Assembly (NCBI GenBank): GCA_902569405.1
Contig: CACFTX010000001.1
Span: 1 to 64,000, forward strand
From: an uncultured Pelagibacteraceae bacterium
GTDB lineage: Bacteria > Pseudomonadota > Alphaproteobacteria > Pelagibacterales > Pelagibacteraceae
DNA length: 64,000 nucleotides
Direction: 5' to 3'
The notes below the pieces were generated by a model. It saw only the letters and a list, made by a program, of their open reading frames with translations, had not been told where the DNA came from and ran no database searches. Position 1 is the stretch's first letter, and each line of letters opens with the position of its first letter. Positions 1 through 47,064 of this stretch are shown piece by piece. A program made the translations under genes and the position numbers.

Positions 1-180
1 AATTTAAATCGATTGGGTTATGGTGGTGGATATTACGATCGTATAATAGAAAAATTAATGAAAAAGAAAAAGTTTTTAAAAATTGGTTTAGCTTTTTCTA
101 AACAAAAAACTAGCAATTTGCCCATATCAAAATACGATAAGAAAATGGACTATATTGTAACAGAAAAATATATTTTATAA
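1..180 (+). CDS. 5-formyltetrahydrofolate cyclo-ligase, C-terminal fragment (cut by window start)
   Basis: Only the last 59 codons are in the window, in frame 1, ending at TAA 178-180. The visible RLGYGGGYYDR stretch is the conserved glycine-rich substrate/ATP-binding signature near the C-terminus of 5-formyltetrahydrofolate cyclo-ligase, which converts 5-formyl-THF to 5,10-methenyl-THF in one-carbon metabolism. The rest of the gene lies upstream of the window. Its stop overlaps the ymdB start by one base (TAATG), so the two are probably co-transcribed and translationally coupled. The family call rests on this single motif and the short C-terminal tail. Confidence 0.8.
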   Translation, partial: NLNRLGYGGGYYDRIIEKLMKKKKFLKIGLAFSKQKTSNLPISKYDKKMDYIVTEKYIL

Positions 181-986
181 TGAGAATTCTTTTTTTAGGG
201 GACATTGTTGGAAAATCAGGATGTGATGCTTTAAAAAAAAATTTACCAGATACAATAAAAAAAAAAAAAATTGATTTTGTGATAGTAAATGGTGAAAACG
301 CCTCAGATCAGGGTGTTGGCATTACAGAAAAAATTTGCACTGAAATGTTTAACTCGGGAGTCGATGTTATTACCACAGGAAATCATGTTTGGGATCAAAA
401 AGAAACTTTATCACACATTGAAAAAGAAAATAGACTTTTGAGACCTGAAAATTTAGTTAAGCCTTCGCCAGGAAAAGGTTTTAAAATATTTAACATAAAT
501 AATGGTTTAAAGATTGGAGTTTTAAATTTGATGGGAAATATTTTCATGAAAAAATGTGACGATGTATTTCTTGAGGCTGAAAAATTTATAAGAAAAAATA
601 TTTTAAAAAAAAACTATGATTTTTTAGTAGTTGATTTTCACGGCGAAATCACAAGCGAAAAAATGGCAATAGGCCATTTTTTTGATGGCAAAGCAACTCT
701 AGTTGTTGGTACGCATACCCATGTACCAACTAATGATGCAAGAATTTTAAAAAATGGAACCGCTTATCAAACTGATGCAGGAATGTGTGGAGATTACAAC
801 TCTGTAATTGGAATGGATAAATTTAATTCATTGAACAAATTTTTAAAAAAAGAAGCAACAAAACATTTTCCTGCAACTGGCGAGGCTTCTTTGTGTGGAG
901 TTATCGTTGAAGCTAATATAAATAATGGTCTAGCAGATAAAATTGAAAATTTTATTTTAGGAGGAGATTTAAAAAATTTTAACTAG
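180..986 (+). CDS. ymdB: YmdB-family metallophosphoesterase
   Basis: A 268-residue protein of the YmdB (TIGR00282) calcineurin-like phosphoesterase family, a binuclear-metal enzyme; the Bacillus member hydrolyses 2',3'-cAMP. Visible metal-ligand motifs are GD at residues 7-8, NGEN at 37-40, GNH at 67-69, DFH at 152-154 and GTHTH at 177-181, all in the expected order and at the usual family length (about 265). The ATG at 180 shares a base with the previous stop, and yebC starts one base after this stop. The cellular role in alphaproteobacteria is not settled; cytoplasmic location is inferred from the absence of a signal peptide. Confidence 0.85.
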   Translation: MRILFLGDIVGKSGCDALKKNLPDTIKKKKIDFVIVNGENASDQGVGITEKICTEMFNSGVDVITTGNHVWDQKETLSHIEKENRLLRPENLVKPSPGKGFKIFNINNGLKIGVLNLMGNIFMKKCDDVFLEAEKFIRKNILKKNYDFLVVDFHGEITSEKMAIGHFFDGKATLVVGTHTHVPTNDARILKNGTAYQTDAGMCGDYNSVIGMDKFNSLNKFLKKEATKHFPATGEASLCGVIVEANINNGLADKIENFILGGDLKNFN

Positions 987-987
987 T

Positions 988-1713
988 ATGGCAGGGCACT
1001 CTCATTGGGCAGGAATTAAACATAAAAAAGGCAAAGCTGACAAACAAAGATCAAATCTTTTTTCTAAACTGTCAAAAGAGATAACCGTAGCTGCAAAATT
1101 GGGCGACAAAAATCCTGATATGAATGCAAGGCTAAGATCAGCAATGCAAGCGGCAAGATCGGCTAATATGCCTAAAGAAAACATTGAAAGAGCAATTGAT
1201 AAATCTTCAAACTCAGTAGATGAAAATTTTGAAAGTATAAGATATGAGGGTTTTGGTCCTGAAAAAATAGCTGTAATAGTTGAAAGTTTAACAGATAACA
1301 AAAACAGAACAGCTTCAAATGTTAGAACGATTTTTCAAAAAAATGGAGGAAGTTTAGGTACTCAAGGCTCTGCTTCACATAATTTTAAACAACTGGGTGT
1401 TATAAAAATTGATAAAAAAGAAATTTCGGAAGAAAAAATTTTAGAAATTGCAATAGATTCGGGGGCTGATGAATGTTTTTCTCATAAAGATTTTCATGAA
1501 ATCCACTGTGATAAAAACGAGATTTATAATGTTAAAAAAGATTTAGAAAAAACTATAAAAAATTTTATATCTACAGATATTTGTTGGTTACCAATAAATA
1601 ACGTAGAAGTTAAAGACGAGAAGTTAAAAATGGCTTTAGATTTTTTAGAAGAACTTGAAGAAGATGATGACGTTCAAAAAGTATATACAAATTTAATTGA
1701 AGGTATTAGTTAA
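988..1713 (+). CDS. yebC: YebC/PmpR/TACO1-family protein
   Basis: A 241-residue member of the YebC/PmpR/TACO1 family. The N-terminus MAGHSHWAGIKHKKGKAD is the family hallmark, and the length matches E. coli YebC (246). Family members have been described as DNA-binding regulators and, more recently, as factors that help ribosomes through difficult stretches such as polyproline. In gammaproteobacteria and alphaproteobacteria it normally sits directly before ruvC, as here: its stop overlaps the resolvase start by one base at 1713. A cytoplasmic housekeeping role is inferred. Confidence 0.93.
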   Translation: MAGHSHWAGIKHKKGKADKQRSNLFSKLSKEITVAAKLGDKNPDMNARLRSAMQAARSANMPKENIERAIDKSSNSVDENFESIRYEGFGPEKIAVIVESLTDNKNRTASNVRTIFQKNGGSLGTQGSASHNFKQLGVIKIDKKEISEEKILEIAIDSGADECFSHKDFHEIHCDKNEIYNVKKDLEKTIKNFISTDICWLPINNVEVKDEKLKMALDFLEELEEDDDVQKVYTNLIEGIS

Positions 1714-2204
1714 TGTTAGTAATAGGTATAGACCCAGGAATTACAGGATCAATTTGTTTTTTTGAAGATGGAAAAATAATTGATTTAATTGAAATGCCAA
1801 ATATGGCGGACGGAAAAAAACAAAAAAAACAAGTAAATGGAGCTCAAATTTATAATGAAATTCTTTTAAGAACAAAAAATGTAGAAAAAGAAAATATTAA
1901 GGTTGTTATAGAACATGTATCTGCAATGCCAGGTCAAGGAGTGACTAGCATGTTTAATTTTGGTCAATCTTTTGGAGTTTTAAAAGGTATTTGTTCAGCT
2001 ATGCAGCTTTCTATGCATTTTGTTAGGCCTATAAAATGGAAGAAATATTTTAACTTAATTAACGCAGAAAAAGATGCAAGTAGAACTAAGGCAATAGAAA
2101 TTTTTCCATACATTTCGAATCAATTATCGAGGAAAAAAGATGCAAATAAAGCAGATGCGGCTTTAATTGCTAGTTTTTTTTACGAAACCTACCAATCTGA
2201 TTAA
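1713..2204 (+). CDS. ruvC: RuvC-like Holliday junction resolvase of phage/mobile-element type
   Basis: A 163-residue RNase H-fold junction nuclease. Candidate catalytic acids are D7 in GIDPG, E67 in VIEHV, and D143 and D148 in RKKD...KADAALIA. The motifs AMPGQGVTSMFNFG (71-84), PIKWKK (106-111) and the C-terminal RKKDANKADAALIA are characteristic, from memory, of the RuvC-like resolvases found in phages and integrative elements rather than of canonical chromosomal RuvC. The position after yebC is nevertheless the classical ruvC site. No ruvA or ruvB follows: tolQ starts 58 bases later. It may resolve recombination intermediates without the RuvAB motor, or RuvAB may be encoded elsewhere. Confidence 0.85.
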   Translation: MLVIGIDPGITGSICFFEDGKIIDLIEMPNMADGKKQKKQVNGAQIYNEILLRTKNVEKENIKVVIEHVSAMPGQGVTSMFNFGQSFGVLKGICSAMQLSMHFVRPIKWKKYFNLINAEKDASRTKAIEIFPYISNQLSRKKDANKADAALIASFFYETYQSD

Positions 2205-2261
2205 TAAATATTTTAATAATAAAGACAAATTCATGACACATTTTAGTGTGAGATCTAACAA

Positions 2262-2936
2262 ATGGATGCAGATATTACATCACAAGCTGTAGGGCTAGCA
2301 AGCAATACAGATTTTTCAATTTTAAAATTATTTATTAGAGCAGATATAATTGTTAAAAGTGTTATAATAATTTTAATAGCTTGCTCAATATATTCATGGG
2401 CAGTCATAATTGAAAAAATTAAACTATTTAAAAAAATAAGCTCTTCCTCTGAAGATTTTGAAAATAAGTTTTGGAAATCAAAATCTGCAGAAAATTTTTA
2501 CAATAATCTTCCATCAAAAACTGAAGATCCGATGGCAAGAGTCTTTATGGATTCAATGCATGTAATGTTAAAATCTAGACGAAGCTCAAACTTGGATGAA
2601 AAAATGTCTATGATGTTAGAAATAAATATTGAAAAACAAATGGAAAAAATTGAAAAAGGATACACATTCCTAGCTACAGTTGGATCAACAGCACCTTTTA
2701 TAGGTTTGTTTGGAACTGTATGGGGAATAATGAATTCCTTTCAGTCAATTGCTATATCAAGAAATACAAGTTTGGCGATTGTAGCTCCCGGAATAGCAGA
2801 AGCTTTATTTGCCACTGCTTTAGGTTTGTTAGCAGCTATACCAGCAGTTATTGCTTATAATAAGTTTAATAATGATGCAAAAAAATATTCTCAAAAATTA
2901 GAAAATTTTTCAAAAAGATTTTTATCAATAATTTAA
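2262..2936 (+). CDS. tolQ: Tol-Pal system proton channel subunit TolQ
   Basis: A 224-residue MotA/TolQ/ExbB-family inner-membrane protein. It shows one membrane segment near residues 28-50, a cytoplasmic loop, and two further segments at about 136-158 and 172-197. The conserved stretch around GSTAPFIGLFGTVWG (141-155) lies in the second segment. With TolR it forms the proton-driven motor that energises TolA and Pal during outer-membrane constriction. It heads the cluster tolQ-tolR-tolA-tolB-pal-cpoB in standard order. The usual upstream ybgC thioesterase gene is missing. Confidence 0.95.
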   Translation: MDADITSQAVGLASNTDFSILKLFIRADIIVKSVIIILIACSIYSWAVIIEKIKLFKKISSSSEDFENKFWKSKSAENFYNNLPSKTEDPMARVFMDSMHVMLKSRRSSNLDEKMSMMLEINIEKQMEKIEKGYTFLATVGSTAPFIGLFGTVWGIMNSFQSIAISRNTSLAIVAPGIAEALFATALGLLAAIPAVIAYNKFNNDAKKYSQKLENFSKRFLSII

Positions 2937-46950: not shown

Positions 46951-47064
46951 ATAAGTTGTATTTTGAGTCTGTAAGTGAATCGAAAAGGAATCAAAACGTG
47001 AACATTAATAGCTGTATTTTGTTACATTGTGGATAACTTCAACTAAGGGTAGTCTGCAAAAATT

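Follow-up and report, generated by a model that had tools for sequence, protein, structure and literature searches.

A putative MOC1-like, phage-family Holliday junction resolvase in place of ruvC-ruvA-ruvB in RuvB-less SAR11 bacteria

In an uncultured SAR11 bacterium (family Pelagibacteraceae), we found that the position between yebC and tolQ where ruvC, ruvA and ruvB would be expected is occupied by one small gene of a phage resolvase family. Our main reading, to which we assign a probability of roughly 85%, is that this gene encodes a small RNase H-fold, MOC1-like Holliday junction (HJ) resolvase which came from the phage gene pool, settled in the old ruvC-ruvA-ruvB slot, and acts with RecG and independently of RuvAB.

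The window, that is, the whole stretch of DNA analyzed (64,000 nucleotides), belongs to a genome of 1.21 Mb in 20 contigs that is 98.64% complete. The features of the locus are as follows.

180 to 986, forward strand: open reading frame (ORF) of a TIGR00282-family metallophosphoesterase (NCBIfam TIGR00282 over cut-off), the upstream neighbor, conserved in relatives; we take it to be a YmdB-like gene
988 to 1713, forward strand: yebC (YebC/PmpR family, NCBIfam over cut-off), left flank of the slot
1713 to 2204, forward strand: gene of the 163-aa putative HJ resolvase (MOC1-like, phrog_1770), in place of ruvC-ruvA-ruvB
1731 to 1733, forward strand: D7 codon; D7 pairs in the alignments with D116, a catalytic residue of NtMOC1, and is identical in 37 of 37 SAR11 family copies examined
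1911 to 1913, forward strand: E67 codon; the NtMOC1 counterpart is the catalytic E175; identical in 37 of 37
1935 to 1937, forward strand: Q75 codon; at this position of the base-recognition loop NtMOC1 carries D183, which reads cytosine, and 37 of 37 SAR11 copies have Q
2154 to 2156, forward strand: D148 codon; the NtMOC1 counterpart is the catalytic E258; identical in 37 of 37
2205 to 2261, forward strand: 57-base spacer before tolQ, without ruvA, ruvB or ybgC
2262 to 2936, forward strand: tolQ (NCBIfam TIGR02796 over cut-off), right flank of the slot

The ymdB-like gene, yebC, the 163-aa ORF, tolQ, tolR, tolB, pal and ybgF run in one direction, and the start of the resolvase gene overlaps the last base of the yebC stop codon (a 1-base overlap). 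YebC, TolQ, TolR, TolB, Pal and YbgF were each named by at least one NCBIfam model over its cut-off. A sequence-only reading of this DNA had described a 163-residue ORF with two characteristic motifs, both of which the ORF at 1713 to 2204 carries, and had reported ruvA, ruvB and ybgC missing from the locus; none of the three lies between yebC and tolQ in the window. The short spacer that it gave as 58 bases is 57 bases long. The gene order yebC-ruvC-ruvA-ruvB, which it took as standard, was indeed seen in alphaproteobacterial controls: in all four RuvB-positive alphaproteobacteria with a listed position for each gene, ruvB shares the strand of yebC and lies 1.3–2.2 kb downstream of it, and the full order was recognized by eye in two more (L093 and L097).

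At the loci read from the window's genus ybgC is absent, but three further genera (L011/L064, L061/L063 and L062) within the family have it between the resolvase gene and tolQ, so its loss at the locus is separate from that of ruvAB. The ybgC frame overlaps the end of the resolvase gene in all five of these loci. A prophage island was ruled out for the slot, as the neighbors tested are ordinary yebC and tol-pal genes. The resolvase gene is also not foreign in composition, its GC content (0.295) being like that of its neighbors (0.302 and 0.286); the case for transfer therefore rests on the protein family and the tree alone.

Pfam and NCBIfam profiles gave no match to the 163-aa protein at E-values up to 10, which includes PF02075, the RuvC NCBIfam models and the RusA family model; as a control, RuvC from another locus (L084) scored 1.6e-47 against PF02075. 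The phage family phrog_1770, labelled Holliday junction resolvase, matched residues 1–158 of 163 (4.6e-34), followed by a second phage family, phrog_159 (4.2e-10). Among sequences of solved structures, chloroplast MOC1 was the best match, at 9.9e-12 with the protein alone and 7.7e-28 with a nine-member profile, versus 2.1 and 0.05 for canonical RuvC.

An RNase H fold is predicted for the protein by AlphaFold2 (pLDDT 92, pTM 0.88). When this model was compared with the PDB using Foldseek, the first 12 matches were MOC1 chains (1.2e-12 to 4.4e-11) and RuvC came next (1.7e-7). The VIA Z score was 22.9 against MOC1 (155 residues, rmsd 2.1) and 17.1 against RuvC; matches in BFVD had E-values of 5.2e-11 or weaker.

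The NtMOC1 study names D116, D118, E175 and E258 as the catalytic tetrad and D183 as the cytosine reader (PMC7078210). The tetrad aligns with D7, G9, E67 and D148 of our protein and D183 with Q75, so that chemistry or sequence preference may differ from those of MOC1. The protein thus shares with MOC1 (6kvn, 6jrf) the full-length fold, three aligned catalytic acids (D, E, D/E) and a C-terminal KKD...A[DE]A motif, but is only 25–29% identical to it, and its gene is a chromosomal bacterial one. Judged as a plant MOC1 in the strict sense, it meets the overall fold and lacks both the full tetrad and the Asp at D183; because D118 aligns with G9, we file it with the wider family. Membership of phrog_1770 is met both by the full-length profile match and by the D...E...D/E active-site acids. 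D7 and E67 are invariant across the 36 rows of alignment A4 (the window protein and 35 viral-contig rows), and a homolog in one phage record carries the CDD domain cd22992 MOC1.

The SAR11 gene is under purifying selection: median dN/dS was 0.088 (0.010–0.36), computed from those 511 of 666 pairs whose dS lay between 0 and 2. The 37 copies used for this analysis and for residue conservation are part of a set of 184, and 29 of them are the best-matching loci (L015–L043), which biases the sample to close kin.

The residue in the base-recognition loop varies in the wider family. It is Q in SAR11 and most phage rows and D in two plant MOC1 proteins, and Asp is also found in six phage, viral or plasmid rows of higher GC. 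The comparison of 6 D with 68 Q rows gave P = 0.001, uncorrected for relatedness and with 10 further rows lacking a motif match. This hints that the sequence preference of the resolvase may be tied to genome GC.

The absence of ruvA and ruvB from the locus extends to the genome. No RuvB (TIGR00635) over cut-off was found in the window's own genome or in any of 247 genomes of the order, and no RuvA (TIGR00084) over cut-off in 97 genomes of the order, the own genome included; the own genome, the only one searched for RuvC (PF02075), yielded no hit to it at E ≤ 0.001. The four weak RuvB matches in the own genome are ClpX, DnaX, Lon and FtsH, and of eight weak RuvA matches the one checked is RecR. 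These own-genome and order-wide profile searches led us to reject a hidden ruvAB elsewhere.

RecG was detected at E ≤ 1e-30 in 84 of 97 genomes of the order, namely, 48 of 48 in the window's family and 36 of 49 in the sister family. In none of the 97 did RecG reach the curated cut-off of 659.4 bits, its scores falling just short, although in most genomes the match covers almost the full profile. The 13 sister-family genomes without a RecG match include two that are more than 90% complete. In sister-family genomes, recG adjoins a second RecG-profile match, a frame of about 790–800 aa on the opposite strand (e.g., G363:C1:68748-70586 and 71602-72807), which is presumably Mfd.

The 247 genomes of the order fall into two families, the window's (f1, 194 genomes) and its sister (f159, 53 genomes). 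The MOC1-like gene is present in 184 of the 194 f1 genomes and, at E ≤ 0.001, in none of the 53 from f159. Eight of the ten f1 genomes without it were checked; six have no yebC match and in two yebC is cut at a contig end. No resolvase was obtained from one locus (L065). In another (L056, genome G422, about 2200-2700), the gene is split over several frames, which may be a sequencing or assembly error or a broken copy.

In the sister family, the eight loci read have a different protein of 124–127 aa between yebC and tolQ. Both of the two proteins tested matched PF24608 "Phage putative PDDEXK endonuclease" (8.5e-8 and 2.5e-7) and phrog_244 (2.1e-20 and 8.2e-20), and matches to PDB sequences were weak (Hjc, 0.87). 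One of the family's proteins (L066) had a single phage record hit, a Roseobacter phage CRP-810 protein with 53% identity that carries the annotation Holliday junction resolvase. A PDDEXK_15 protein was found in 43 of the 247 genomes, all from f159 (43 of 53) and none from f1; it is present in 12 of 12 f159 genomes at least 90% complete, and the ten f159 genomes without it are all below 80% complete. The MOC1-like and PDDEXK genes are mutually exclusive in the 247 genomes.

In the class, homologs of the window protein were detected in 6 of 289 genomes. The four with the gene beside yebC lack RuvB; in the two that are RuvB-positive (G194 and G246) the gene and yebC are on different contigs, and in G194 it is less than 1 kb from a DNA-invertase gene. 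Outside the order, one RuvB-less genome that is 80% complete (G118, family f118) has a MOC1-like gene in the yebC slot, 33% identical to the window's and followed by ybgC and tolQ. An AU test rejected SAR11 and f118 copies as one clade (P = 0.0025), and the f118 gene is apparently of separate origin. Some caution is needed here, as the group, although defined by gene order, was chosen once the tree had been seen, and the branches are long.

In four other RuvB-less genomes (G023 and G155 of f24, G161 of f141, G030 of f31), a protein of 97–122 aa lies between yebC and tolQ. These short, HIMB59-type proteins matched phrog_2002 "Holliday junction resolvase" (2.5e-10 for L087, 2e-8 for L092, 2.1e-6 for L083) and no Pfam family over cut-off. 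We assign them provisionally to the PD-(D/E)XK class from a D...ExK motif and a pair match with the sister-family protein (30% identity over 96 columns, E = 2e-6 for the pair); the two types may have a common origin. A scan of named genomes for the short family yielded 144 relatives, of which 80 were kept; with four further loci, a motif script found yebC-short-tolQ in 83 and yebC-short in one. The short protein of AG-891-K05 (L202) is 100% identical to that of L087, and one paper places this genome in family GCA002718135 of the HIMB59 order (PMC10734472). In f50 (G049), a 168-aa PDDEXK_15 protein (PF24608, 2.3e-21; phrog_244, 1.3e-13) stands between yebC and a tilS-like gene and is 44% identical to proteins of large Pseudomonas phages.

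RuvB-negative genomes (E ≤ 1e-40) number 30 of the 289 in the class. Twenty were listed, and we examined the yebC locus in 19 (all but G149), i.e., the own genome, G207, G098, G118 and 15 others. A phage-type resolvase fills the slot in nine and RuvC in four (G044, G084, G108 and G119; the G044 locus ends at a contig edge). In four, no recognized resolvase was found beside yebC among ORFs of at least 90 aa (L098 in G017, L099 in G072, L089 in G103 and L091 in G134), and two (G112 and G127) have no yebC match. Loss of RuvB is therefore not always paired with a phage-type resolvase in the slot. In two genomes scored without RuvB (G119, locus L086; G108, locus L088), the RuvC gene beside yebC has no adjoining ruvA and is possibly an orphan.

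Phage-type resolvases have thus come to occupy the yebC-tolQ slot of RuvB-less lineages on more than one occasion, and the number of captures is not fixed. MOC1-like and PD-(D/E)XK proteins are different families, so that at least two sources are needed; the likeness of the f159 and HIMB59-type proteins reduces the number of separate captures that can be claimed. It is conceivable, at somewhat below even odds, that yebC-tolQ is a recurrent site of resolvase replacement, where streamlined marine alphaproteobacteria dropped RuvABC and domesticated one-gene phage resolvases from at least two unrelated families, the MOC1-like type apparently twice and the PD-(D/E)XK type one to three times. If so, whole orders of dominant ocean bacteria would recombine with relaxed-substrate phage enzymes and RecG, which may help explain promiscuous recombination in SAR11, and the chloroplast MOC1 of plants would likewise have been captured from this phage pool.

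The same slot contents might also go back to few captures and later swaps, an ancestor of the RuvB-less marine lineages having taken up one phage resolvase that was then exchanged or replaced by recombination over the yebC and tolQ flanks; we regard this, too, as a tenable idea that falls a little short of an even chance. The flanks are conserved while the middle gene varies, SAR11 recombination is described as promiscuous in PMC12374537, and the short proteins of f24, f31 and f141 are 65–69% identical, with the f159 pair match pointing the same way. Few captures are harder to reconcile with two different families, with the AU result for f118, and with f159 and f50 proteins that share only a weak match of 41 columns (E = 0.002) and have different best phage matches. 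The yebC tree, from which L062 dropped out, was too poorly resolved to decide.

How the SAR11 protein would work can be outlined by inference. Its most likely function is that of a stand-alone HJ resolvase acting with RecG, and this assignment comes from comparative analysis without activity data. Under our main reading, the ancestor of the family would have acquired the gene from the phage gene pool, and the captured gene would now occupy the old ruvC-ruvA-ruvB slot, coupled to yebC. The protein, probably a dimer like MOC1, would cut four-way junctions with D7, E67 and D148 and no RuvAB partner, and RecG would supply branch migration in place of RuvAB. Homologous recombination in the conserved flanks, yebC and tolQ, could spread the gene between lineages, which would not explain its first entry into the slot.

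A precedent is known from Escherichia coli. A review states that RusA can replace RuvABC provided that RecG is present (PMC5055574). In the SAR11 family RecG is present and RuvB absent, and with a stand-alone resolvase the arrangement appears to fit this requirement; it would be a natural, fixed equivalent of the way in which RusA bypasses ruv mutations. Both cases involve a phage-type enzyme expected to stand in for RuvABC together with RecG, but the protein families differ, the rusA gene is normally silent, and the SAR11 case is natural and fixed family-wide.

It could be objected that the slot protein is a phage-derived nuclease with another job, such as phage exclusion or fork trimming, and that HJs are handled by YqgF or by RecG alone. 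Several phage-type nucleases do fill the slot, their resolvase labels are family names and not tests, and four RuvB-less genomes lack a recognized resolvase beside yebC. YqgF, which was outside our searches, has been proposed as a resolvase in a survey (PMC1193525). We nevertheless consider this objection improbable: the slot proteins of f1, f118, f159, f50 and the HIMB59 type all match families that carry the label HJ resolvase and sit at the ruvC position in RuvB-less genomes, the closest solved relative, MOC1, cleaves Holliday junctions (PMC7078210), and carriage by 184 of 194 family genomes is unlike what is expected of a defense gene.

Relatives of the protein occur in phages. It matched 116 of 50,697 phage records, including epsilon15, PaV-LD and SOVA965, whose homologs are 38–39% identical to it and similar in length and motifs; unlike them, the SAR11 copy is a near-universal, conserved chromosomal gene in a RuvB-less order. 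None of the best 40 of the 116 matches exceeds 39.9% identity, and all 116 stay below 60%. Viral contigs encode relatives of the wider family in at least 528 stretches, a scan of them with the single window protein giving 4 loci, and a plasmid search returned 4 records. No close donor was found among the phage, viral-contig or plasmid matches, and Pelagibacter phages are not among the ten commonest organism names in the phage matches listed. Identity to the 35 viral-contig rows of A4 is only 30–44%, so no donor is identified and the direction from phage to cell is inferred.

In a tree of 87 rows, the 11 SAR11 rows form one clade (100/99) and eight canonical alphaproteobacterial RuvC sequences a separate clade on a long branch (100/100); the phage, viral and plant MOC1 rows fall on the SAR11 side. 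The viral-contig rows had been thinned from 80 to 47, 13 of 120 phage and plasmid records were used, and L080 was left out. Bootstrapping had not converged, and the tree contains several long rows. With its deep branches unresolved, again no donor can be named.

These results also bear on descent from RuvC itself. A highly diverged vertical descendant of alphaproteobacterial RuvC, which lost its RuvAB interface after deletion of ruvAB, would account for the shared slot and RNase H fold and for RuvC being the next best fold match. However, MOC1 is preferred over RuvC by about 11 orders of magnitude with the sequence and about 25 with the profile, no Pfam family matches, the tree sets the protein with phage rows, and the PD-(D/E)XK proteins in the slot of other RuvB-less lineages have a fold that cannot descend from RuvC. 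We find this origin very unlikely, and profiles and tree together rule out a canonical but fast-evolving RuvC. That ruvAB exist and were missed through assembly or sampling is a negligible concern, as the fragmentation of the own genome and of many relatives is offset by four single-contig genomes of 99–100% completeness (G207, G098, G291 and G312) without RuvB or RuvA over cut-off and by a RuvB model that works in 256 of 289 class genomes and 10 of 14 controls, the other four being archaea.

The sequence-only reading had called the protein a phage-type resolvase and proposed xenologous replacement followed by loss or relocation of RuvAB. Judged by profiles and phylogeny, the protein is indeed phage-type and not a canonical RuvC. 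A grouping within canonical RuvC, or ruvAB beside another true ruvC, would have refuted the proposal; neither was found, the search for a true ruvC covering the own genome and that for ruvB 247 genomes of the order, and replacement with loss is well supported, the order of gain and loss being inferred. Relocation finds no support, with RuvB over cut-off in 0 of 247 genomes. The comparison of loci that it called for across the order and class gave a SAR11 family that keeps its resolvase in the slot and a sister family and other orders that hold different phage-type resolvases.

The protein family was already known; for the replacement in SAR11 and the recurrent use of the slot, no report was found in the open-access literature searched. 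Lists of missing ruv genes in SAR11 may exist, and an earlier mention of their absence is not excluded. Compared with canonical RuvC and RuvAB, the SAR11 protein has the same slot beside yebC, the same predicted fold and presumably the same reaction, but no PF02075 match, a separate clade and no RuvA or RuvB over cut-off in its order. In a survey of 117 species, RuvAB and a resolvase are near-universal core recombination genes with little horizontal transfer, and a phage-encoded protein doing the cell's resolution is suggested in general terms (PMC1193525). The same text describes RecU in the role of RuvC in Firmicutes, likewise a non-orthologous resolvase; RuvAB is kept there, whereas SAR11 lacks RuvAB and its lineages use different resolvases in one slot.

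A RuvB-less order of abundant, free-living and heavily recombining bacteria is a strong exception to near-universal RuvAB, and one slot with different phage-type resolvases amounts to an experiment of nature on what junction processing can do without. A 2025 paper describes heavy recombination in SAR11 and stresses missing RecBCD, RecF and MutSL; a term search of its main text only did not find "ruv", "Holliday" or "resolvase" (PMC12374537). Resolvase replacement is thus a further testable element in explaining how SAR11 recombines.

The window is placed in SAR11 by positions 46954-47044 on the forward strand, which match the Rfam family RF01827 (SAR11_0636 sRNA) with 85.1 bits, above the gathering threshold of 67.
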